Positions 44,308-60,721 of a stretch of DNA of 64,000 nt are shown here, in pieces (positions within the stretch are counted from its first letter, which is position 1; every line of letters starts with the position of its first letter). Made by a program: the position numbers and the translations under genes. The notes beneath the pieces are model-generated. The model ran no database searches, was not told where the DNA came from, and worked only from the letters and a program-made list of their open reading frames with translations. Source of the DNA: Jaenimonas drosophilae (lineage: Eukaryota > Euglenozoa > Kinetoplastea > Trypanosomatida > Trypanosomatidae); contig JASAON010001583.1 of NCBI GenBank assembly GCA_030849065.1, forward strand, positions 1 through 64,000. Direction: 5' to 3'.

Positions 44308-45690
44308 ATGTCCGTGACCCACTGCCAATTTCAGGACTGTGACGTGCAATTCGGATACTTCTCCACCGTCAACACATGCCATGTTTGTCACATCAAAATG
44401 TGCTCGAAATGCACAAAATCATCTTCTATTGGCCAGCCCAACAACAAAGCAGTGAACTACTGTATTCGATGCCTCAAATACGTCACGCACAAGGAGCTCA
44501 CCACACACCACACACCAGCTATCATTGACCATCCTTCGCCACCCACCAACCCTACCCTCTCTTCTACACAGGCACAAACCACTCCTCATCCACTCTCCAC
44601 CTCCGCACCACAACCAAACAACACCATTGATACAGTAGAATCTGCCTGTGCTGAGCGTGATGCCGCGAAGAAGCAGCTAGCTGAACTGACTGCTTCACAG
44701 GAACGGATGCAAACCGATGCTGCCACAAGTGCACAGGATTTGCATGAACGCGTTGAGTCTGCATGTGCTGAGCGTGATGCTGTGAAGCAGCAGCTGACTG
44801 AGCAGGTGCAATCCGTAAGTGCCGAACGTGATGCCGCGAAGAAGCAGCTAGCTGAACTGACTGCTGCACAGGAACGGATGCAAACCGATGCTGCCACAAG
44901 TGCACAGGATTTGCACGAACGCGTTGAGTCTGCATGTGCTGAGCGTGATGCCGCGAAGAAGCAGCTGTCGGAGCTGGTTGGTGGTAAGAATGGTGAGCTG
45001 AATAAGCGGGGTGCGGAGTTGAAGGTGATTGAGCTGGAACTAAGGCGGGCGTTTGGCTGTCTTGAGAAGCGCAAGGAGATGTTGCATGATGTTGTAAGTT
45101 CATTTGTGGCGGAGAGTGCTGAGTTGAGTCGTGCAGAGGAAGAGCTGTGGAGTGATGAAGTTGATGGGGAAGAGTCGAAGATGAAGGCGATGGGGCTCCT
45201 TGTGAGCCCGAAGTCCAGGGGTGGGGCGAAGGTTGAGGATCGTCTGAAGAGTGAAGATGGCATGCCTAATAAAGGAGGAACGCAACGCATTCAAGGGTCG
45301 AAGGATTCTTGTAGGGTACGTGAGGATGGCTTGTTTCAGTCCAAATTTCAGGCGGTGTTGGAGGAGTTTGGTGTGGATATGGATGATTGTGAAGGGGTGG
45401 TGTGTGGTGCATCACAGCCTTTGGGCAGTGGCGGTGTTGTTGTTCCAAAGTTGCGCATGGAAGAGGTGTCTGCTGTGCAGCGAGGGAAGAAGCTTGACGT
45501 AGCGGCTGGCGCGAAACACACATCTCTGGCGCCATTGGAGGCGAGGGGGTTGGCTGTGAGTGAGGGTAAGCGGCGCGCAGATGAAGATGTTAGAGTTGGC
45601 CATTTGGAGCTGGATGCACGCAGTAGTGCGGAGAGCTTGGCTGCTTTTCGGCGTTTGGAGGAGTCTGTGAGGAAGCTTCATGAATCGTAG
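44308..45690 (+). CDS. FYVE-like zinc-finger protein with repeated coiled coil, 460 aa
   Basis: The N-terminus carries eight cysteines in FYVE-like pairs: C6/C11, C24/C27, C32/C35 and C52/C55. The central basic RRHHCR signature of phosphatidylinositol-3-phosphate-binding FYVE domains is missing, so lipid binding is uncertain. A Pro/Thr-rich linker (about 70-110) precedes a coiled coil built of near-identical internal repeats (about 111-228) whose unit opens with ESACAERDAAKKQL and ends AATSAQDLHER. A second charged coiled region and a low-complexity tail follow, ending in a helix (LAAFRRLEESVRKLHES). An endosomal tether or adaptor is possible. Codon use in the repeats differs from flanking genes and suggests a fast-evolving protein. 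Confidence 0.8.
   Translation: MSVTHCQFQDCDVQFGYFSTVNTCHVCHIKMCSKCTKSSSIGQPNNKAVNYCIRCLKYVTHKELTTHHTPAIIDHPSPPTNPTLSSTQAQTTPHPLSTSAPQPNNTIDTVESACAERDAAKKQLAELTASQERMQTDAATSAQDLHERVESACAERDAVKQQLTEQVQSVSAERDAAKKQLAELTAAQERMQTDAATSAQDLHERVESACAERDAAKKQLSELVGGKNGELNKRGAELKVIELELRRAFGCLEKRKEMLHDVVSSFVAESAELSRAEEELWSDEVDGEESKMKAMGLLVSPKSRGGAKVEDRLKSEDGMPNKGGTQRIQGSKDSCRVREDGLFQSKFQAVLEEFGVDMDDCEGVVCGASQPLGSGGVVVPKLRMEEVSAVQRGKKLDVAAGAKHTSLAPLEARGLAVSEGKRRADEDVRVGHLELDARSSAESLAAFRRLEESVRKLHES
44640..44990 (+). repeat. Nearly identical internal coding repeats in the FYVE-like gene
   Basis: Two full copies of a unit of about 117 bases beginning GAATCTGCCTGTGCTGAGCG (copy starts 44638 and about 44812) and further partial copies. 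The GCCGCGAAGAAGCAGCT block recurs at 44662, 44833 and 44950. Spacings of 171 and 117 bases show in-frame multiples of 3. Nucleotide identity is high enough to imply recent amplification. Confidence 0.8.
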
Positions 45691-49845: not shown

Positions 49846-51843
49846 ATGATGGCTTCCAAAGGTTGTGGCTGTGCCTTCGTGTTGATGGCGGCTCTCCTTT
49901 GCTGCGCCATAGGCGTCAGCGGAAGCCAGGGTGAGGATCCCTTTCGTGCACAACCGTCAACACAGCATGCTGCGGTGAATGAGTTGCTACCCGCCAAGGA
50001 CGGGCCGAATATGGTGGTTTACCGAGCAGGTAACGACTCCTCATCTGACAAGCTCAAGGGCTACTACATTGGCGCACTCATCATGTTCATTGCTGCCATC
50101 ATTTTCGTGGTGGCTGCCATTTTGTACTGGTGCTGCTGCTGTGGACCAGACATTCCAGACGACGATGAACCAGCCATGGCCAAGCCAATCCCAAAATCCG
50201 CCCCCTTGGTGCAGTCTGTGGATCCATCTCTCAAGTATGCCCCCGAGGATGAGGAGGATGTAACCATCATGATGATCGATATTTGGCAAGGCAATCAGCT
50301 GTGGCAGAGCACTCCAGATGCGATGATGCAGTCCGTGGAGTACTACCAGAAGGAAATACAGACCCTCTCTGCCAAACACTTTTGCTACTACACAAAAAGC
50401 ATCGGTGATGCATGTGTGGTGGCGTGTAGCAACGCGGGAAATGCTGTTGACCTTGCTGTGGATATTCAGCGTACGATGCTCCAACACAAGTGGGAGAAGT
50501 CCATTGATGAAGTGTATCACTGCCTAGACAAAGAGCAGGGGGATAACGTCGCTCGCCCCAAGGACTTGTGGAAGGGCCTTCGTGTACGCATCGGCATGAG
50601 CACTGGCACTGTCAGCCGGGTGGAGGATCCAGACACACGGAATCCTGATTACATGGGTGAGGTGCGTGTCTCTGCCGCCCGGCTCCTTGTGCTTGGGTCT
50701 GGTGGCCAGGTGCTGCTGACGGATGATACCCTTCAAAGCTACACCACCGCACAGAATGAGGGCAAAGGAGGCAAGGGCGACCACAGCATGACGGACCTTG
50801 GCTTTCATCTACTCCTGAAGGGAGCGGAGGCCCCTGTGCGTGTGTACCAGCTCGACGGGGTGAATGGCCGGCAGTTTCCACCCATGCGGTCGGTCGGAAC
50901 GTTGCCAAAGGCGACGAAGGCGGCTCCGGTGACCAAGTCCAAGTCGGCAGACGAAAAGGATGACAAGAAGGACGGCAAGAAGGAGAAGGAGAAGGGCAAG
51001 CCCGAGACCAAGAATGAGAAGAGGAACGTAGTCATCCGCCCCAGCAATCAGTACCAACAAGAGGATTTTACAAAGTCAAAGGACCCTCCTGTGGCGTACA
51101 AGGTGGCACAGCTCTGCGAGGTATCGTGGCGCTTGGGATTAGAAGAACTTCCTCGCGATGGCATGAGCGACGATGAATATTATGACAAGCTAATGCAGTA
51201 TATTAAAGACAATACAAAGAAGGTGGATGATGGCGAGGGTGACGACGTCACTTCCATGGTTGACCCTGTGTTGGGCGCGCCAATTGTTGCACCGCCTCCC
51301 GCGAACGACCCAGTGAGCGATACAGAATCCACCCGTGGACGTCGCCGCGGGCGAAAGGGAAAACGTGGGTTTGATCTCTTTGCCGATGACAATGACAACA
51401 CCAAGAAGAAGGGCAAGAAGAAGAAGGGCGGAAAGAACGACAAGGGAGTCGTTAAGTATCTCCACGGTGCGCCAACCATGGCTGGTGATATCGTGAAGAA
51501 GTGCTTCCCTGATAGTAACGGCCTTCTGTTTCGAATTACAGACTCTGCATCTGGAAAGTGGGGCTTCTACAACGACACTCTGAGTTACGTCATGAAGGTG
51601 AAGATCACGCTAAGCAACAATAGTCAATTTGTCCCATTGGGCACCGCCTCGTTCACACGAGACCCATCCACGGGAAAGCAGGTGGGCGAGCTCGTCATTC
51701 ACCCACTGAAAACAGAACCCCTCTTGGCAGGTCACATCAACGGCTTTAAGCTGATGTACTCCGCTACCCCACTAAACTCCTTCTCCCAAGTGAATAGCAA
51801 CAACCGTCCCCCTCTGAATGCCATAGACAACACCATGAAGTAA
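49846..51843 (+). CDS. Receptor-type adenylate-cyclase-homology protein fused to DUF1935 calpain-related domain (array member A)
   Basis: 665 residues. Signal peptide about 1-26, short ectodomain 27-72, one transmembrane helix 74-94 followed by CCCC (likely palmitoylated). Residues about 138-345 match the cytosolic cyclase domain of trypanosomatid receptor adenylate cyclases, including the parasite-specific insert (DEVYHCLDKE to LWKGLRVR) and the VYQLDGVNGRQFP exit. Both metal aspartates remain (Asp145 in MMIDIW, Asp188 in KSIGDAC), with Lys184, Asp268 and Arg279, but the transition-state Asn is Val (GEVRVSAAR). Residues 366-390 are Lys/Asp-rich and 455-535 disordered. Residues about 535-650 are a DUF1935 module (YLHGAPTM, NGLLFRITD, WGFYNDT, LKTEPLLAGHINGF) as in calpain-like and SMP-1-type proteins. 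Catalytic activity is doubtful. The fusion and tiny ectodomain are unlike classic receptor cyclases, whose ectodomain is large. Confidence 0.85.
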   Translation: MMASKGCGCAFVLMAALLCCAIGVSGSQGEDPFRAQPSTQHAAVNELLPAKDGPNMVVYRAGNDSSSDKLKGYYIGALIMFIAAIIFVVAAILYWCCCCGPDIPDDDEPAMAKPIPKSAPLVQSVDPSLKYAPEDEEDVTIMMIDIWQGNQLWQSTPDAMMQSVEYYQKEIQTLSAKHFCYYTKSIGDACVVACSNAGNAVDLAVDIQRTMLQHKWEKSIDEVYHCLDKEQGDNVARPKDLWKGLRVRIGMSTGTVSRVEDPDTRNPDYMGEVRVSAARLLVLGSGGQVLLTDDTLQSYTTAQNEGKGGKGDHSMTDLGFHLLLKGAEAPVRVYQLDGVNGRQFPPMRSVGTLPKATKAAPVTKSKSADEKDDKKDGKKEKEKGKPETKNEKRNVVIRPSNQYQQEDFTKSKDPPVAYKVAQLCEVSWRLGLEELPRDGMSDDEYYDKLMQYIKDNTKKVDDGEGDDVTSMVDPVLGAPIVAPPPANDPVSDTESTRGRRRGRKGKRGFDLFADDNDNTKKKGKKKKGGKNDKGVVKYLHGAPTMAGDIVKKCFPDSNGLLFRITDSASGKWGFYNDTLSYVMKVKITLSNNSQFVPLGTASFTRDPSTGKQVGELVIHPLKTEPLLAGHINGFKLMYSATPLNSFSQVNSNNRPPLNAIDNTMK

Positions 51844-52746
51844 AATGTGTGGATTCAGAATACCGGAGATGATGCACAAGGCATGGCGAGTAGAAAGAAT
51901 ATCACTCGGCTGGCTTGTACCTGCGAGGTAGTGTTGCGGAGCCCTCACGCGGTTATTCTATCACTGGAAGGAAACCGGCCAACTGGCTGTGAGTTTTTTT
52001 GGCCGTATTCCTTCACCCATTTTCACCCCTCGGGAGAGCTGCTGCCTTTCGCGCCTTTGCGGCTGGACTTCATTGTTTCTTGTGTAGCAAGCGCTGTACT
52101 CTCTCCACTCATCCTCCCGTTTTATAGCCTTCCATTATGGAGGCATGCCTGTGAGGAGAGGCGCCATTCCACCCCAACCGTGCCCGTCGTCAGCGGTGGT
52201 CTGCGGACTGGTGGATGAGCGAGTTTTCTTTTCTTTTCAATTTTTTTCTTTGTGATTTATTACTTTGTTGTGCAAAACATGCATGCTCTCACCCACTTCG
52301 GTTGTGGACCGTTGCTTCTACCCTCCACACCCGAATGACTACACTTCACTCTCGATTGTTATCATGTAGTTCTTCCACACTTCAGCGAGAAGTGAACCTC
52401 AGCTGCCCACCTCTACAGTGGCTGCAGAATGACCTCTAGAAAAAAAAACCACTGGACAGACTTAATGGAATGATAGTTCTCACGATTTACTGTGGTATTG
52501 ACGAATGACTATGCAAATCATGTCGCATTTCCTTCTCTTTGCGATTTGCCTTGTAGTAACAATACATTGGTCAACGAACAACTTTGGCTTTGTCGTTGTC
52601 CTCGACTCCAGCACGCACACACAACTGGTGCGCTGGGAGTACGACTGCTTCTTACCCCACTCCCACTGTGAGCGCCACACAAAGGCACCACCGGTGGTAG
52701 GTACTTTGTTTTTTTAGAGACCCCCCAGGTTGGCGGCGCTAGTCAA
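51844..52746 (+). promoter_or_regulatory. Spacer (0.9 kb) with predicted trans-splice acceptor before array member B
   Basis: No gene seen; a 123-codon frame directly after member A starts at GTG and is low quality. A run of eight A lies at about 52440-52448. A T tract at 52707-52717 ends in TTAG, 30 bases before the ATG at 52747. Confidence 0.5.
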
Positions 52747-54600
52747 ATGCCACCAGGTCGTAGATCTAGATACGCACGCGCTCATCCCCCGTGGAGCGGT
52801 CCTTGCGGAGGAGCTCAATCACTTCAAGGAGTAATGCTGTGTGTCGTTCTTGGAGTGATTGTGCTGAGCGGTGTTGTCTCGGCACAATCCGCACATGATG
52901 TATCGTCCTCATTTAGTTCAACCAATGCCGTGCATTATCTACCGCCGGAGCCCTCTCTCCTTAGCAATGCCACAGTCACAGGTGAAGTTCTGCTACGCCC
53001 AGTGCTGAGGTCTCCATCCTCCACCGACTCGGAAAGATCTGACCTTCTTCCTGCCGATGACATGGCCGATGTTGTGAACGTCGTCTTCAAGGGTGAGAAG
53101 GGTGTAGTCGATGGCCTGAAAGATTGGCTTGACTCAAAGACTAGCTTATCCATCGTGATGGGAATTTGTGGCGGTATCATTGCCGTTTCCATTGCACTCT
53201 TTATTCTGTGCTTTTGCCTCCGCGATCGAGAGGATCTACCCTTTTCATTGCCCTTCATTGGCGAGGGAGATGATGGAGGCGGTGGTGGCGGTGGCGGTGG
53301 AGGCAAGATGAAGGTCATCTCCGGCGCGGCGCCAAAGGCAGGAACCTGCAAGCTAACCATGATTGCGTGTGATATTGAGAACTCGTGGATGCTCTGGAAT
53401 ATGAGGCCTGAAACCTTTGAAGAAATTGAGGCGGACTACAAGCGCGAGATGCGCAACTCCTTAATTATGCACAACTGCTTTGAATTCCGGCAAGTGGGCA
53501 CCATGTTTCTCATCACCTCAAACAGCCCGCTGAGTGCCTTGCAATGGGCGACGGCCATGCAGCAGTACTTCCCTAGCGACACCGCCCAAACCCCACACGT
53601 TCGTATGGGCATTCACTTGGCTGAGTGCAAAGTCAAAATTGACAAGAAGACGGGCGACTACGAGATTCAAGGCCCGCTGACGGACATTGCACAACGAACG
53701 ATGCTAGAGGCGCAGCCCGGCCATGCGTGGGTCACGGAAGCGACGCATGATGCACTGGGTGAGGGAGATTTAGAGGTGATTGACCTTCAAGCCATTGGGG
53801 AGAGGGACCTCCCTGGTCTCCGCAAGAGCATTTCAATGTATCAACTTCTCTGCGGCCCAGGCGCTCGTGAGTACGACCCACCAGAGCCGACGAGTCCTGA
53901 GGTGGTAAGTCCAGAGGAAAGTGAAGAGCCCGCATCCCCTCAACCAGGCGGGGGGCGCCCGAAGGCCTTGGATGTGCATAAACTCAACAACGAAGATACG
54001 CCAAATTTCGAGGACTCCATCTATGGCGGCAAGGCTACGGAGGCGCTGCAGACAAAGAAGTCTCCACCACCAACGGCCCCAACAGAGCCTGCCGAACGAC
54101 CAAGAAAGGCGCCACCCAAGATAGAACGGAAGATGAAGGTGAGAGGAGAAGTTGGTGATCCAGCAGTGGTGCGATGGAAGAATGCTGCAGGTGAAGTGGA
54201 TCCAGTTCGTTTCATTCACGGCACTCCATCCATCTCTGGTGATAAGATTCAGCGCTGCTTTGCCGAGGGAAACGGCTTGCTCTTCCGCATCAATGACACT
54301 GTGAACGGGAAGTGGGCCTTCTACAACGACACACTCAACTTCAACATGAGAGTTGGAATGACGTGTAGTAAGAACAGTGAGTTCGTGGCACTAGGGTCGG
54401 CGAAGTTCACTGAGGATCCGGTGAGTGGGCAGTACATTGGAGAGCTCATCATCCCTCCCCTAAAGACAGAGCCACTGCTAGCTGGTACAGTGGGTCGCTA
54501 CAAGCTGATGTACTCCGCAGCACCATCTCAGGGATTTGATCCGTCCAAGATTCGCAATCCACTGGATGGTGATGAAGAGCAGAAGCACTCGGCGAGGTGA
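52747..54600 (+). CDS. Receptor-type pseudo-adenylate-cyclase fused to DUF1935 domain (array member B)
   Basis: 617 residues. The N-terminus is unusually long and basic before a signal sequence at about 30-46 (MLCVVLGVIVLSGVVSA). The ectodomain is about 85 residues and holds the LRPVLRSPSSTDSER block shared with member C. Transmembrane helix about 134-157. A ten-glycine linker (177-186) precedes a cyclase-homology domain (about 200-370) that lost the parasite-specific insert. Metal Asp209 (ACDIENSW) remains, but the second metal aspartate is Thr252 (RQVGTMF) and the transition-state Asn is Asp (LTDIAQRTM). The arginine is kept, and adenylate cyclase activity is unlikely. A Pro/Glu linker leads to a DUF1935 domain at about 484-600 (FIHGTPSISG, NGLLFRIND, WAFYNDT, LKTEPLLAGTVGRY). 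Probably a scaffold or regulatory dimerisation partner rather than an enzyme. Confidence 0.87.
   Translation: MPPGRRSRYARAHPPWSGPCGGAQSLQGVMLCVVLGVIVLSGVVSAQSAHDVSSSFSSTNAVHYLPPEPSLLSNATVTGEVLLRPVLRSPSSTDSERSDLLPADDMADVVNVVFKGEKGVVDGLKDWLDSKTSLSIVMGICGGIIAVSIALFILCFCLRDREDLPFSLPFIGEGDDGGGGGGGGGGKMKVISGAAPKAGTCKLTMIACDIENSWMLWNMRPETFEEIEADYKREMRNSLIMHNCFEFRQVGTMFLITSNSPLSALQWATAMQQYFPSDTAQTPHVRMGIHLAECKVKIDKKTGDYEIQGPLTDIAQRTMLEAQPGHAWVTEATHDALGEGDLEVIDLQAIGERDLPGLRKSISMYQLLCGPGAREYDPPEPTSPEVVSPEESEEPASPQPGGGRPKALDVHKLNNEDTPNFEDSIYGGKATEALQTKKSPPPTAPTEPAERPRKAPPKIERKMKVRGEVGDPAVVRWKNAAGEVDPVRFIHGTPSISGDKIQRCFAEGNGLLFRINDTVNGKWAFYNDTLNFNMRVGMTCSKNSEFVALGSAKFTEDPVSGQYIGELIIPPLKTEPLLAGTVGRYKLMYSAAPSQGFDPSKIRNPLDGDEEQKHSAR
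52994..53099 (+). repeat. 106-base patch nearly identical to member C
   Basis: This segment of member B and 55733-55838 in member C differ at only two positions (a C/T at the 'ccaccgac/ctaccgac' site and a G/A near the end), while flanking coding sequence is clearly diverged. It encodes the LRPVLRSPSSTDSER ectodomain block to FKGEK. Gene conversion or recent partial duplication is the simplest reading. Confidence 0.85.
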
Positions 54601-55506
54601 TTGAGGGCCTTTGAGCAGAACCTCCCGTCTATGATGCACGCCGTCGCAAGCTCACTTCTGCTCATGCGCTGGCACATTGTTGGCCTCAGCGCGCTCACCC
54701 TTCCTGCTCTTTGTTGTCTTTCTTCTATATTAGAGCCTCTCTGCCTACAACTTGCGTCAATGTGTCGAATTGATGTTGCTGCTTTTATCCCTTTTCGAGT
54801 GGCGGGTGGATGAGAGTCAGTGCGGTGCAAGGAGGACGTGCCGTTGAGAGTAGATACTGAAGTGTGGAGCTGACGTGGCAGAGGAGCTGCTCAACGCCAC
54901 GGTGCGCATGCATGCACACACCTTTTTGACTGGGCTCCTAACCTGCTTAGTGTAGTGTACGTATGGTGCTTATTTTTCTTGTCATACCCTTGTCTATTGA
55001 TCGACGCCATGAATCGATTGATGTCATTACTGCCATGATAGAACAAGTCGCTGGAGCTTCCTTGATGATGAAGTGCATTGCTGCTCATGTATTTACGTGA
55101 TTTGAACATTCATTTCCTGAAACGATGTAATTTTTTTCCCTTTGTTGTTCAACAAGCATAGGGTAGAACCTGTAACACTGGAAAGTTCTGATCGTCTTTC
55201 TTACCTAGACTTTAGGAATCTGAGAACTCTCCACCGGAGAAGCGAGGGCGAGGGATCTCGCCATCACCATCCGTTGTATTCTTCTTCCGTTCACTGGCCA
55301 TTTAGCCAACCGTAGAGGGGTGAGGGATTCAGCTTCGCCCCCTTGACTTATACACACTCTCAGCTCACTCCTTATTCAGCATACACCCCCGTCTCATCAG
55401 CGGCCGAACACAAGGAGACTGCCAGCAGGTGACGAACCTGATTGACGGCATCATCTTGAGACACTTCTTCTTTCAACGCTTGTGCTTTGTGTAGTGCGGC
55501 CCCATA
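54601..55506 (+). promoter_or_regulatory. Spacer (0.9 kb) with predicted trans-splice acceptor before array member C
   Basis: No gene seen. T/C tracts include one ending in TAG at 55492-55494, 13 bases before the ATG at 55507. A run of seven T occurs near 55131-55137. Confidence 0.5.
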
Positions 55507-57261
55507 ATGACTCACTCACGTAGTATCAATGCACGCTCCAGGCCACAACAACGCTCATGGCGATGGCTGGAATGCCTCATGACCATGTCAGTTCTTCTTC
55601 TCATCTCGGTTGTTTCCGCATCGTCGCCAGGTGAGGATGCGCTGCCAACCTTTAGTGCTCCCGATGCAGTGAGACATCAGCCGTCGGTACTTTCCCCCCT
55701 TAGTAATGCCACAGCCACAGATGAAGTGCTACTACGCCCAGTGCTGAGGTCTCCATCCTCTACCGACTCGGAAAGATCTGACCTTCTTCCTGCCGATGAC
55801 ATGGCCGATGTTGTGAACATCGTCTTCAAGGGTGAGAAAGGCGTGGTGGACACTATCAAGGACTGGCTGGACACAAAGACTAGCTTATCCATTGTCATGG
55901 GTGTTTGTGGCGGTATCATCGCCGTATCCCTCCTCGCCATCATTTGCTGCTGCTGCCATAGCGATCCTGGCCCATCTATTAAGCAGATCGAGGAGGCGAA
56001 GCAGAAACTGGCAAATGCACCTGTAGTCGTTGAACCAACTATTGGAAATGGGAAGCTCACTGTCATTGTTTGCGACGTGGAAAACGCAGCGGAGCTGTGG
56101 AACCTTAGACCAGACAAGTACGAGTGGGTAGATGCAGCATACAAAAGTGAACTGCGAAATTGCTGCTCCTCCAACAACTGCTTTGAATTGAAGTCGGTTG
56201 GATCGCTGTTTATCTTCACGGCCAACCGCCCCGTTGATGGAGTGAAGTTTGCGGCCGCCGTTCAAGACTACTTTCCCAGCGTCAAGGCTGCGGGCAGACT
56301 AGTTCCCCGCGTTCGCATTGCTGTGCATCGTGGTGATTGTAAAGTAACGAGGGACGTTAGAACAGGCAAGTATGAATGCACTGGTGCTGCAGTAGAAGGG
56401 GCACTTTGGACGATGATTGACACGACCCCAGGCCATGCCTGGGCGACGGAACCGGTGTATGAGGTTCTTACCCCTGAGGAGCTGGAGACGGTGGACCTGC
56501 GTGTGGTTGGGGAACGCGCCGTACGAGGCTTGCGCAAGAACTTCAACATGTACGAGGTGTTCACGGCCGGGGGTTCAGTTGGATTCCCGGCTCCGTCCAT
56601 CGACAGCCCTGTGATGGGCTCTTTGGCCAACACAAAGGCCATGAAGGAATCCCCAGCAGGAGGGCCTAATGACAACCCACTCGCGCGGCCATCATCGTCC
56701 AAGTCGGCCATATCACCGAATAGCGACAGCGCGCGATCTCCACGATCCCCACGAACTTCATCCTCACGAAGGAGGAGAGGAGAACAGGCAAATGCCATTC
56801 ACTATCCTGAGCGCCCCACAAGTGGACGTGGACGTACTGTCGTGCAGATTGACGATCGACCGCGTTCACCGAGTGCCTTCCCACCAACGGAGACGGGCTC
56901 TCCTCCTGCACTGCAGCGCTCCAAAGATGGAAAGCTGGTCATTCCACTCTCTCCGAGCCAACTGTTTGGCAGACGTCGCCGCGGAAGCCTGCCGACCGAA
57001 GAGCCTTCTCCTGTGGGGAGCCCTGTTCCAACGTCAATTCTGCGGAATAAGGTAAACACCGCCCCGCCTACCCCCACACCCGTCGTCCCGGATGATGGCA
57101 AGTTGATTGTGAAGAGCCAACCATTCCCTCCAGACTTGACGGACGAGACCATCCCTGACCATCCATCGCAGATGAATCAAGCACGCATGAAGCACTTCCA
57201 CTTTGCATTGTACCCGGAAACCTATATGCGCTCGGCCACGGAGATGCCAAATGCCAAATAA
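55507..57261 (+). CDS. Receptor-type pseudo-adenylate-cyclase without DUF1935 (array member C)
   Basis: 584 residues. Basic N-terminus, signal sequence at about 21-38 (LECLMTMSVLLLISVVSA), ectodomain of about 90 residues nearly identical in part to member B, transmembrane helix about 125-147 followed by CCCC. The cyclase-homology domain (about 182-355) lacks the parasite-specific insert. Metal Asp190 (VCDVENAA) remains, but the second aspartate is Ser233 (KSVGSLF) and both transition-state Asn and Arg are gone (CTGAAVEGALWTM). The DUF1935 domain of A and B is absent. Instead there is a Pro/Ser/Arg-rich disordered tail (about 365-584) with SPRSPRTSSSRRRRG and RPRSPSAFPPTE, likely a phosphorylation and SH3/WW-type docking region. 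It is the most degenerate member. Evidence for catalysis is absent. Confidence 0.87.
   Translation: MTHSRSINARSRPQQRSWRWLECLMTMSVLLLISVVSASSPGEDALPTFSAPDAVRHQPSVLSPLSNATATDEVLLRPVLRSPSSTDSERSDLLPADDMADVVNIVFKGEKGVVDTIKDWLDTKTSLSIVMGVCGGIIAVSLLAIICCCCHSDPGPSIKQIEEAKQKLANAPVVVEPTIGNGKLTVIVCDVENAAELWNLRPDKYEWVDAAYKSELRNCCSSNNCFELKSVGSLFIFTANRPVDGVKFAAAVQDYFPSVKAAGRLVPRVRIAVHRGDCKVTRDVRTGKYECTGAAVEGALWTMIDTTPGHAWATEPVYEVLTPEELETVDLRVVGERAVRGLRKNFNMYEVFTAGGSVGFPAPSIDSPVMGSLANTKAMKESPAGGPNDNPLARPSSSKSAISPNSDSARSPRSPRTSSSRRRRGEQANAIHYPERPTSGRGRTVVQIDDRPRSPSAFPPTETGSPPALQRSKDGKLVIPLSPSQLFGRRRRGSLPTEEPSPVGSPVPTSILRNKVNTAPPTPTPVVPDDGKLIVKSQPFPPDLTDETIPDHPSQMNQARMKHFHFALYPETYMRSATEMPNAK
55733..55838 (+). 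repeat. Partner of the 106-base near-identical patch
   Basis: See 52994-53099. The orientation is direct, about 2.7 kb away. Confidence 0.85.
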
Positions 57262-57763
57262 GTAGTTGCCCCCCCCTCCCCCCATACACACCGTCGCGTT
57301 TGCATGTGTGGATGTGTGCGAGGCGACCCGGACGTGCGAAGAGGAGCGTGGCCGACGTGAATCTAGCCTTTCCTTCTCAAGAATCTGTGGATAATCCTTC
57401 GGCTTAGGGAGAAATACACCAGTGTTGCGATTTCAGGAGTTGCTTCACCCTCATTTTTTTTTTGCTTCTTTTTGCTTCTAGAACCATTTGTGGTTGGACC
57501 GCCACGACAGATCAATTTTTTTTTTACTTCATCTATTTTCCCCCACATTTTGTACTTCACACCCTTCTCCCTACCACATTTACAGGAAGAGAGGAGCTCA
57601 CTGTTACGAGCGACGAATGCGATGATGTCAAACTTGCTGTGCCTATGCCGTTGTTCATTCAACATATTGCATCTGGATGTGTTGTACTAATGTGTGCTAC
57701 AACCTGAAATTTCACTCTCTTTTTTGTACCTTTGCATCGGTAGCTCGGTGTTGTTGTAGATTT
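57262..57763 (+). promoter_or_regulatory. Spacer (0.5 kb) with predicted trans-splice acceptor for CFAP58
   Basis: Several T runs (57453-57461, 57515-57526) and a T/C tract ending in GTAG at 57740-57743, 20 bases before the ATG at 57764. The frame open from an ATG at 57677 reads through this tract and gives a cysteine-rich, implausible N-terminus, so it was not used. Confidence 0.6.
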
Positions 57764-60721
57764 ATGAGTGACAAGGAGGATCCGTTGGTGCCTCCTCTCA
57801 AGGCGCCAGCGCCGCCGCCGGTGGTGACCGCAACGACAGGCCGGAATGGCAGTTTTGCTGCAGACAGCATTGTTAGTGCTCTTAGTGCGGTCCAGCTTGA
57901 GGGTTTAGAACACCGCTATGTGGAGGTCCTCCGTGAATTGAATGCGGAGCCCAAACTCCTTCCATTCAAGACAGAGTACGAAAAGATTCATCGGCTACTG
58001 AACAAGAGCCACGAGGGTGAAACACGAATTATATCCAAGATTCATGAACTTCGGAACGAGTTGGCTTCCTACCACGCCAAGATTGACAGCGCCATGGAGC
58101 TTTCGAAGGGAGATGAGAAGGTGATTGCCAACCTCCATCACAAGCTGGAGGAGGCGTGGGCCACTTCCGACACAGCCCAAGCTCGAGAGAAGGAGAGTCT
58201 GGAGCTCATTAAGGTGCTTCAGAAGCAGGTTGCGGATTTGGATGTATTGGTAGAGCAGAGTGCCGGGCTCTCTATGGGGCAAGAAGCCTATCTCCGCGAT
58301 TTGCTCGCCACAAAAAAGGAACGCGAGGAGGAACACTCGCAATTTTCCATCAAGGTTACTCGTTTGAGCGCGGAGCACCACGAGATCTTGACAAAGCTGC
58401 GCAAAATTCAGGAAGAAGATGCGATTGTTCGTTCTGATTTGGAACAACGCATGAGTGCCTATCAGTCCATGTTGGCGGAGCTCGAGAGCCAGCAGAAGGA
58501 GCGCCAAGGTAAGGAGCAGAGCGTGCGGGAGTATCGTAGTTCCACTGAAAAGCTAGTCATTGAGCTGGAGAAGCGGCGAGAGCTGACGGAAACACTGGTA
58601 CACGAGGAAACGAAGCTGCGCAAGGAAGCGGTTGATTTGAATGATCTCGTCGAAAGCTTGATTCGGCAGTTGGATGAGAAACAGCGACGTTTCAAGGCAG
58701 AGGCAGACCGCTTGTCGGCCGTGGAGGTGCACAACATGCAGCTCAAGAAGGAGATTCCCAAGAAGCAGACCGTAGTAAAGGAGCGTGAGCGTGAGTTGGC
58801 CAAGTCCAAGAAGAATCTAAAGCAGCTCGAATCTACTGCAAAGAATCAGCAGGGAGATCTACAGTCTCTTGTCGACGCGCGTGAGTCGCTGATCCACAAG
58901 AACAACGAATACACTAGCCAGATTGACACCCTCCTCATCAAGTTGGCACAGGAGGAGAAGACCGTCCAGGGAATTGAAACGGAGCTCAAGAAGGCCATGA
59001 AGGACAAGACACGTACCATTGCCAACAACTCGTCCAAGGAGAACGAACGCGCACAGGTGGAGGGTCAGCGTGTGCTGGAAGAGGGCAAGAGCCGACGTCT
59101 TGCACAAGAGTTGGAGGGCTTGCTGACGGAGAATGAAGCTATGCGTAAATCGCTCTTCGAGCTTGAGTTGAAGCAGTCCAAGGAGCTCGGAGCAGCACAG
59201 ACCGTAATGCTCGACTACCACAAGACGTTGGACCACATCCGTTCTAAGCGGCAGGAAGCCAAGCACCTTCGCGATGTATGTGGGATGCACGAAAAGAAGC
59301 AAAAGGTTCAGCAGGAGTTGCTTGAGCGTGTTGTAACTGACCGCAATCGCACCGAAAAGCAGCTCAAGGAGACTGAGACGGAGTGGGGAGATCTCAAGGA
59401 GCAACATGGCTCCAAGTTGGAGGAGATTGAGCGCATGAAGAGCGACCTCATCTCTAAGGAAGGAGCACTGTGCCAGCTTCACACAGTCATCAAGCAACTC
59501 CAACGCGATACTGCCAATACAGAGCAGCGTGCTAGCCACCTACGTGAAGACTGCAATCATGCCCACAGCCGCATTGAGGCTCTTCAAGCGGAAGCCCACC
59601 AGCTCAACCAGGTCATCGCCAACTGTGATGCGGAGAAGATGAAGCAGCAGATGCGACTAAGCTCCATCACGAACGAACGAAATGTGTTGGCGACGCAGCT
59701 CATTCGCCGAAACGAAGAGCTCCGCCTGCTCTATGACAAGATCCAGCTACAGCAGAGTGCACTGGACAAGGGAGCCATGGATTATGAGCAACGTGTCAAG
59801 GAACTCCTTCAGACGCGAGATAAGCTCCTAGAAACCCGTCTCCGGTGCCGTATCGCACTGGTGCGTTTGCAGTACATGGACCGTTTGAAGCACAAGGAGC
59901 TCCGCATGGACAAGGCTCTACTTCGTACTCGCGGCAGAGTGCGCGCGCTCACCGATGAACTGCAGTGCCCGGTAAACGTCCATCGCTGGCGGCAGATGGA
60001 AGGAAGTGCTCCCGACCTGTTAGATGGCATTGCAAAGGTTCAAATGCTCCAGCGAAAGGTCCTGGCCAAGTGTGATGAATGCGACTCGAAGAAGCACTTG
60101 ATATCAGAAAAGGAATCCCAATACGCGTTGTTGCGGAGGAAGTTAGCGCGTCTTCCTGGCCCTGAAGCGGCTGAGGACTTGGCGCTGTTTCACGAAAATC
60201 TAGAAAAGCGCGAGGATCAGATTCATGGCATGTCGGATGAGCTTACCGATGTGCAGCAACATGCGGAGGTGCTAGGAGAGGAAGTGCGACAGCTGAACTC
60301 AGAACTCCACGAGGTGAAGGGAAAGTACTTTCTTGCCAAGGCCAAACATGAAGCGTTGCGGCGTGAGCGGCTCGCTCTGCGGCAGACATGGGGCGGCACG
60401 AGTGCGGTGGCGAACATCGCCATTGCTGCCACCCACGGACCTAGTTCATCCTATCGTGGCGACGGCGATTTGGATTCCCCACCCAACACCGGTGATGGTG
60501 CGCAGATGCGTCTTTCTGCTCCCCAGCGCTTCCTCAGCAGCAGCGGTGGCATGCGCATGTCCAACGTCTCTCCGACCACCAGTCAGAGAGTACGAGCCCT
60601 TGCTCGTGAGCAGGAGGTGATGAAGGTTCTATCCACTGGACGAGAGGCTCCAAACTACCCACTACAGAAGCCAAAGAACCAACGCCAATTCGTCGGTGGC
60701 GGCTTCGCCCTTACACGCTGA
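57764..60721 (+). CDS. CFAP58: Cilia- and flagella-associated protein 58 (CFAP58/CCDC147)
   Basis: 985-residue coiled-coil protein of the axoneme/intraflagellar apparatus. Family landmarks in order: EGLEHRYVEVLRELN near the N-terminus, KIHRLLNKSHEGE, VEQSAGLSMGQEAYLRDLL (residues about 160-180), SALVQLH-type segment EGALCQLHTVIKQLQ, then ITNERNVLATQLIRRNEELRLLYDKI, NVHRWRQMEGSAPDLLDGI and LARLPGPEAAEDLALF in the C-terminal third. Coiled coil is almost continuous from about 40 to 880. A disordered Ser/Gly/Arg tail of about 100 residues follows, longer than in human CFAP58 (872 residues). CFAP58 supports flagellar assembly, so a role in flagellum biogenesis is expected. Starting at 57764 avoids 29 residues of splice-tract translation. 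Confidence 0.93.
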   Translation: MSDKEDPLVPPLKAPAPPPVVTATTGRNGSFAADSIVSALSAVQLEGLEHRYVEVLRELNAEPKLLPFKTEYEKIHRLLNKSHEGETRIISKIHELRNELASYHAKIDSAMELSKGDEKVIANLHHKLEEAWATSDTAQAREKESLELIKVLQKQVADLDVLVEQSAGLSMGQEAYLRDLLATKKEREEEHSQFSIKVTRLSAEHHEILTKLRKIQEEDAIVRSDLEQRMSAYQSMLAELESQQKERQGKEQSVREYRSSTEKLVIELEKRRELTETLVHEETKLRKEAVDLNDLVESLIRQLDEKQRRFKAEADRLSAVEVHNMQLKKEIPKKQTVVKERERELAKSKKNLKQLESTAKNQQGDLQSLVDARESLIHKNNEYTSQIDTLLIKLAQEEKTVQGIETELKKAMKDKTRTIANNSSKENERAQVEGQRVLEEGKSRRLAQELEGLLTENEAMRKSLFELELKQSKELGAAQTVMLDYHKTLDHIRSKRQEAKHLRDVCGMHEKKQKVQQELLERVVTDRNRTEKQLKETETEWGDLKEQHGSKLEEIERMKSDLISKEGALCQLHTVIKQLQRDTANTEQRASHLREDCNHAHSRIEALQAEAHQLNQVIANCDAEKMKQQMRLSSITNERNVLATQLIRRNEELRLLYDKIQLQQSALDKGAMDYEQRVKELLQTRDKLLETRLRCRIALVRLQYMDRLKHKELRMDKALLRTRGRVRALTDELQCPVNVHRWRQMEGSAPDLLDGIAKVQMLQRKVLAKCDECDSKKHLISEKESQYALLRRKLARLPGPEAAEDLALFHENLEKREDQIHGMSDELTDVQQHAEVLGEEVRQLNSELHEVKGKYFLAKAKHEALRRERLALRQTWGGTSAVANIAIAATHGPSSSYRGDGDLDSPPNTGDGAQMRLSAPQRFLSSSGGMRMSNVSPTTSQRVRALAREQEVMKVLSTGREAPNYPLQKPKNQRQFVGGGFALTR

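Follow-up and report, generated by a model that had tools for sequence, protein, structure and literature searches.

Cyclase-impaired, short-ectodomain receptor-like genes in Jaenimonas drosophilae, two of them fused to DUF1935, as an extreme of a lineage-specific expansion

The 64,000-nucleotide stretch of the trypanosomatid Jaenimonas drosophilae analysed here (GCA_030849065.1, contig JASAON010001583.1, positions 1 to 64,000 of the forward strand; hereinafter, the window) carries three neighbouring genes, denoted A, B and C, which encode membrane proteins with a short ectodomain and a cyclase-like domain of the kind found in receptor adenylate cyclases (RACs), fused in A and B to a DUF1935 domain. 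Comparison with the rest of the genome (370 contigs, 18.8 Mb; labels such as C201 denote its contigs or loci) shows that these genes, which have lost the large ectodomain, lie at one extreme of a lineage-specific expansion of receptors with impaired cyclase domains, and we consider this large expansion a more interesting result than the fusion in the window. The most far-reaching interpretation, to which we give somewhat less than an even chance, is that most of the RAC repertoire of this organism has turned into cyclase-dead receptors, that one branch gives its output via the fused DUF1935 rather than cyclic AMP (cAMP), and that the window genes represent a stripped-down, non-enzymatic class of flagellar receptors or receptor partners.

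A preliminary description of the window had proposed three adjacent genes with a RAC-derived cyclase domain, a short ectodomain, a single transmembrane (TM) helix and, in two of them, DUF1935, and all these elements were recovered, in open reading frames (ORFs) that are indeed open and on the plus strand (Table 1). TM helices and N-terminal hydrophobic stretches were assigned by a hydropathy scan, which found one further TM helix in each protein beyond the N-terminal stretch, ahead of the cyclase domain; the cysteine run that follows the helix of A is a possible palmitoylation site. Pfam searches detected Guanylate_cyc and DUF1935, both over the cut-off, in A (E = 6.6e-14 and 1.2e-28) and B (7.5e-7 and 2e-28), and among Protein Data Bank (PDB) sequences the cyclase part is best matched by GRESAG 4.3/4.1 (GRESAG 4.3 at 2.7e-26 for A and 5.5e-21 for B) and the DUF1935 part by SMP-1 (1.1e-20 and 3.3e-17, respectively). 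The Guanylate_cyc match of C (E = 7.3e-4) scores 19.6 bits, under the curated cut-off of 21.9 bits, but is not due to chance because C, when compared within 47 proteins, matches the GRESAG4.1 domain at 2.4e-15 and is the sister of B in the cyclase tree with 100/100 support. Pfam found no DUF1935 in C, and none of the genome matches to this domain falls there. The periplasmic-binding-protein (PBP)-like ectodomain of RACs (PF25493) is absent from all three proteins in Pfam searches at E of 1, and the genome-wide ectodomain search gave no match on the contig of the window (C292). Furthermore, a profile of the conserved region that follows the cyclase domain in RACs, built from 14 of 15 chosen RACs, did not find this region in the window genes (A, 1.1 bits; B, no match; C, -3.7 bits), compared with 44.0 bits in C201 and 42.7 bits in C253; an impression by eye that A retains the region was rejected on this score. 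No CysPc match was obtained by Pfam in A, B or C, and the DUF1935 domains of A and B are C-terminal.

Table 1. Features of genes A, B and C in the window
Feature	Coordinates	Strand	Basis
Gene A, 665 aa: hydrophobic N-terminus, ectodomain of ~50 aa, TM helix, cyclase-like domain, charged linker, DUF1935	49846..51843	+	ORF, Pfam, hydropathy
A, TM helix, aa 75-93, followed by a CCCC run	50068..50124	+	hydropathy 3.11; sequence
A, RAC-type cyclase domain, aa 134-348, hexad DKDDVR, Asn lost	50245..50889	+	Pfam, PDB sequences, alignment
A, DUF1935, aa 538-643	51457..51774	+	Pfam E 1.2e-28; SMP-1 structure 2fe0 E 1.1e-20
Gene B, 617 aa: hydrophobic N-terminus, ectodomain of ~95 aa, TM helix, cyclase-like domain, DUF1935	52747..54600	+	ORF, Pfam, hydropathy
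Segment common to B and C, B copy (ectodomain and TM helix), 279 bases, 84% nucleotide identity	52912..53190	+	
B, TM helix, aa 140-158	53164..53220	+	hydropathy
B, cyclase-like domain, aa 195-372, hexad DRTEDR	53329..53862	+	Pfam, PDB sequences, alignment
B, DUF1935, aa 489-593, 58% identity to DUF1935 of A	54211..54525	+	Pfam, alignment
Gene C, 584 aa: hydrophobic N-terminus, ectodomain of ~90 aa, TM helix, cyclase-like domain, Pro/Ser-rich tail, no DUF1935	55507..57261	+	ORF, Pfam, hydropathy
Segment common to B and C, C copy (ectodomain and TM helix), 84% nucleotide identity	55651..55929	+	
C, TM helix, aa 129-147	55891..55947	+	hydropathy
C, cyclase-like domain, aa 177-356, hexad DKSEEW	56035..56574	+	Pfam, alignment, cyclase tree

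The active site of class III cyclases includes two metal-binding Asp residues, a Lys and an Asp that contact the substrate, and the transition-state Asn and Arg. This hexad was read by alignment to GRESAG 4.1, in which it is DKDDNR. A is much less degenerate than B and C: it keeps five of the six residues, including both metal Asps, and loses only the transition-state Asn, whereas B and C keep two of six each. Judging from these residues, B and C are clearly pseudo-cyclases, as claimed in the preliminary description for all three genes; for A, which retains five residues, weak or half-site activity is possible. Among 140 database proteins, which were retrieved with A and C201 as queries and are biased to intact forms, 129 contain DKDDNR and 134 keep the Asn. 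The 11 exceptions comprise seven proteins without a trypanosomatid name and four trypanosomatid RACs (P0074, P0119, P0123 and P0133, the last being merely a gap), so that single degenerate RACs occur elsewhere, too.

In J. drosophilae, degeneration extends over most of the RACs that were read. The genome contains 52 DUF1935, 33 Guanylate_cyc and 94 PF25493 matches; the latter merge to 85 loci, fragments included, and 65 of the 94 exceed 900 nt. Cyclase-like matches merge to 65 loci, five of which are unlike the window kind and have no RAC ectodomain near (three on C47, one each on C155 and C347); the other 60, fragments included, together with five fusion genes that these searches did not match, amount to about 65 RAC-type loci. 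The complete hexad is present in two of the 36 RAC-type domains read (C165 and C201), a count that omits the three C47 loci, C155 and C347, the last of which was also omitted from the cyclase tree, its first metal position being unaligned. The 29 unread RAC-type loci are off the Guanylate_cyc list or score below 23 bits, compared with 93 and 116 for C165 and C201, so further intact RACs appear unlikely among them. A high score does not by itself imply an intact site: RAC L033 on C306 reaches 102.6 bits with Guanylate_cyc, yet has lost both Asn and Arg (DKDDLH). No ectodomain lies within 2.5 kb of ten of the 65 merged loci, namely, the five set apart above, a fragment on C39, C253, A, B and C. 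The capacity for cAMP breakdown is retained, with four PDEase_I matches over the cut-off. On contigs C222 and C68, RAC-ectodomain genes occur in runs, mostly as ORFs of ~570-880 aa, and no cyclase match was found within 2.5 kb at 8 of 10 merged ectodomain loci of C222 and at 6 of 6 of C68; cyclases in an advanced state of decay may be concealed in these genes, as is the case in L064 on C222.

The fusion found in A and B likewise belongs to a family. Reading the ORFs around 37 of the 52 DUF1935 matches gave, as a lower bound, 12 fusion genes (A, B, C253, C201, C274, C368a, C368b, C188a, C188b, C212a, C212b and L073 on C222) and one probable fragment at the end of contig C234, in which the post-cyclase region scores 11.3 bits. 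Seven of these were submitted to Pfam in addition to the window genes, yielding ectodomain plus DUF1935 in five (C201, C274, C368a, C212b and C188b) and DUF1935 in the other two (C253 and C222). The family grades from an intact cyclase, accompanied by an ectodomain, in C201 to barely recognisable ones. With a canonical profile made from 13 cyclase domains, C201 included, the scores are 357 bits in C201, 151 in A, 85 in C253, 67 in C274, 66 in C368a and C368b, 46 in B and 33 in C (best stretches), followed by C188a and C212b (12 each), C212a (7), C222 (5) and C188b (4); the TM-less DUF1935 controls L071 and L072 gave no match and L076 scored -4.6. A wider profile, which includes A, B, C, C201, C253 and C274 and leaves out the others, the most decayed members among them, gives 111 bits for C368a and C368b, 24-44 bits for the five most decayed fusions, whose cyclase assignment depends on it, and no match for the three controls. 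C253 (P0146, 764 aa) resembles A and B in combining a short ectodomain, a TM helix, a degenerate cyclase (EKDDVR) and DUF1935, but differs in that it retains the RAC post-cyclase region. The controls L071, L072 and L076, located on C212, C188 and C222 along with fusion genes, are long proteins with two DUF1935 domains and no TM helix found, and their tested DUF1935 domains group with those of the fusions. Elsewhere, C103:8996-10393 holds four consecutive DUF1935 matches within a single 530-aa ORF.

Outside this genome, a search that took the C201 protein (residues 500-1133) as query retrieved 140 proteins at E <=1e-10; among the 120 listed, eight contain both PF00211 and PF09149, and seven of the eight also PF25493. 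They comprise proteins of six Leishmania species (including L. donovani, L. major and L. mexicana), one of Strigomonas culicis and one further protein, and all eight have DKDDNR. Thus, the statement in the preliminary description that canonical RACs lack DUF1935 holds for the 112 listed proteins without PF09149 and fails for the other eight, which also rule out that the fusion is unannotated; the product name of the L. naiffi protein even mentions both cyclase and DUF1935. The RAC-DUF1935 fusion as such, which had been presented as undescribed, is therefore already annotated, whereas its short-ectodomain, cyclase-impaired form is a new variant. The Leishmania proteins resemble A and B in the order of TM helix, RAC cyclase domain and C-terminal DUF1935. 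Their DUF1935 domains lie in the same supported tree set as those of A and B, but this set also takes in six non-fusion rows, and the fusions alone are rejected as a clade (see below). The Leishmania proteins differ in having the PBP-like ectodomain, an intact hexad and a length of 1401-1410 aa, none of which applies to A and B. The Strigomonas protein, of 645 aa, lacks PF25493, but its contig measures 2,875 bases, so that it is perhaps partial. No relative of the short-ectodomain, cyclase-impaired form was found outside the J. drosophilae genome, in searches that could easily miss one: the search with the whole of A was seeded with words of residues 1-500 and evaluated 8,000 candidates, without listing the Strigomonas fusion, which is in the length range, and in that with DUF1935 of A, 0 of 96 candidates scored at 1e-8.

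Searches confined to open-licence PubMed Central found no discussion of the cyclase-DUF1935 fusion, the articles consulted in passages including PMC7952579, PMC7365475, PMC11520290, PMC10286712, PMC6787982 and PMC10747355, and the word 'cyclase' is absent from the calpain papers PMC3563603 and PMC7912814. A protein named 'RAC a-like', LmxM.36.3180, is treated as a flagellar adenylate cyclase (AC) in PMC6615630, and the L. mexicana fusion is probably this protein, an identity for which product name and species are the sole basis; P0031, P0033 and P0035 carry other names (hypothetical protein; cyclase/DUF1935). The trypanosome RACs (GRESAG 4, ESAG4 and ACP) share with A, B and C the single TM helix and the RAC-type cyclase domain, but have a large ectodomain, a mostly intact active site (degenerate rows include P0074, P0119 and P0123) and, in those listed, no PF09149. 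Two trypanosome-type RACs, P0039 and P0055, are filed under Schistosoma mansoni, probably as contaminated records. SMP-1, SKCRP and the calpain-like proteins KIAP2 and KIAP3 share the DUF1935 module with A and B, but carry it N-terminally or alone. These DUF1935 proteins are not known to have a TM helix or a cyclase domain.

What might such proteins do? In class III cyclases, every active site is made by two chains, so A could provide a half-site, with B and C as silent partners. RAC domains work as head-to-tail dimers (PMC6027212), dominant-negative AC heterodimers have been discussed for trypanosomes (PMC9481589), and the DUF1935 carriers SMP-1, which is myristoylated according to a reference title in PMC6615630, and the KIAPs localise to the membrane of the flagellum or to the attached flagellum (PMC11322530, PMC6615630). 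Building on these reports and on the domain content, TM helices, residue losses and graded family observed here, we infer, with a confidence that stays just short of even, that the three short-ectodomain, cyclase-impaired receptors act in the flagellar membrane, anchored by DUF1935, as scaffolds or dimer partners for the few cyclases that are active. The cyclase fold would be retained since it dimerises; the proteins would be located in this membrane, with DUF1935 holding or clustering them, and would pair with, or scaffold, the intact RACs C201 and C165, so that local cAMP goes up or down, with one half-site supplied by A. We take calpain 1.3 to contain DUF1935. In T. brucei, this calpain colocalises at the flagellar tip with CARP3, which binds ACs (PMC9481589).

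An improbable alternative is that A is still an enzyme, either working at a low rate alone or forming the metal-binding half of a heterodimer in which B and C are silent. The single missing residue, the Asn, and the dimeric, site-sharing mode of RACs are in line with this possibility, but the Asn is kept in nearly all database proteins (see above), and in C253, which is likewise short, this position is also Val, with Glu replacing the first metal Asp as well.

The opposite extreme, that the genes are relicts in the process of being lost, without present function, could account for the graded decay, for the ectodomain matches of C212a, which are split over two ORFs so that the gene may be broken, and for the stops within the cyclase-like match C270:2757-3194. 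We regard it as very unlikely, given that the window ORFs are all open across 584-665 aa, that the DUF1935 domains of A and B have remained similar despite saturated synonymous change, and that the ectodomain and TM segment shared by B and C (96 codons) shows a dN/dS of 0.24. In eight related pseudo-cyclase domains from C67, C123 and C215, which are full receptors without DUF1935, dN/dS is 0.22-0.59 in 28 of 28 pairs.

The main rival is that the proteins are purely structural or adhesion scaffolds, in which the cyclase fold is merely a dimerisation module, DUF1935 ties the flagellar membrane to the cytoskeleton or attachment plaque, and cAMP plays no part. It owes this standing to the most decayed fusions, on C188, C212 and C222, in which the cyclase is nearly gone (at most 12 canonical bits) and DUF1935 persists at 100-107 bits in Pfam; moreover, no TM helix was found in L073 on C222, and KIAP2 and KIAP3, which combine an N-terminal DUF1935 with a calpain-like domain, are required for flagellar adhesion (PMC11322530). 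We nevertheless consider it unlikely, though less so than the two preceding alternatives: the five catalytic residues kept in A, the constraint on pseudo-cyclase domains that lack DUF1935 and the existence of C, which has no DUF1935, all speak against it.

Several observations weigh against the interpretation as partners of active cyclases. The cyclases on C47 (three) and C155, with no RAC ectodomain near, are intact, and hence cAMP need not derive from RACs. Synonymous change is saturated for DUF1935 of A and B and for the cyclase domains of B and C, so that no usable measure of selection is available for the cyclase domains of the window genes (the dN/dS of 0.33 for the cyclase domains of A and B, with dS of 3.1, is unreliable). 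PMC9481589 states no evidence of direct contact between calpain 1.3 and the AC-CARP3 complex. Finally, the trees do not support a single clade of fusions. In the second of two DUF1935 trees, a clade of the 20 core fusion rows alone was rejected by the approximately unbiased test (p-AU = 1.5e-5), and the fusion label requires six changes, at least four of them forced by supported branches; a single fusion clade was also rejected in the cyclase tree (p-AU = 0.012), where A and C253 form long branches. The first DUF1935 tree, with 12 fusion rows (seven more were recognised as fusions later), likewise rejected a single clade (p-AU = 0.0004).

In the second DUF1935 tree, a supported set of 26 rows (98/97) unites 20 of the 21 fusion rows with six non-fusion rows, three of which stem from contigs that carry fusion genes as well; the Strigomonas domain lies outside the set on a long branch. 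When L025, L027 and L028 are added to the 20 core rows, the clade is not rejected (0.245). This tree, unlike the first, includes a row from L. orientalis, and for L071, L072 and L076 one of the two DUF1935 domains each was used and the other left out. One early fusion followed by later splits would be the simplest reading of these trees, although a common origin is not established.

Upstream of the starts of A, B and C, pyrimidine runs are followed by AG, as in trans-spliced genes, an observation made without comparison with chance. Third-position GC content is 0.64, 0.57 and 0.56 in A, B and C, respectively, and 0.51-0.67 in four other window genes. The next gene downstream (57677-60721) has a match to CFAP58_CC (E = 4.1e-27), by name a coiled-coil family of cilia and flagella. 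Elsewhere in the window, a 171-bp unit is repeated 1.9 times with 93% match at 44648-44978, inside an ORF (44308-45690) without a Pfam match, and a run of 28 C with GC-rich repeats occupies 441-531. The genome also holds cytochrome c1, which argues against Phytomonas, and four Flagellar_rod matches, in keeping with a kinetoplastid.

Trypanosome receptor cyclases are studied as producers of cAMP. In J. drosophilae, most of the RACs examined have lost active-site residues, which makes receptor signalling independent of cAMP a testable proposition. That a single chain combines cyclase and DUF1935 is in keeping with the location of calpain 1.3 beside the AC-binding CARP3 at the flagellar tip of T. 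brucei (PMC9481589), and the fusion offers a concrete hypothesis on the role that DUF1935 may play.

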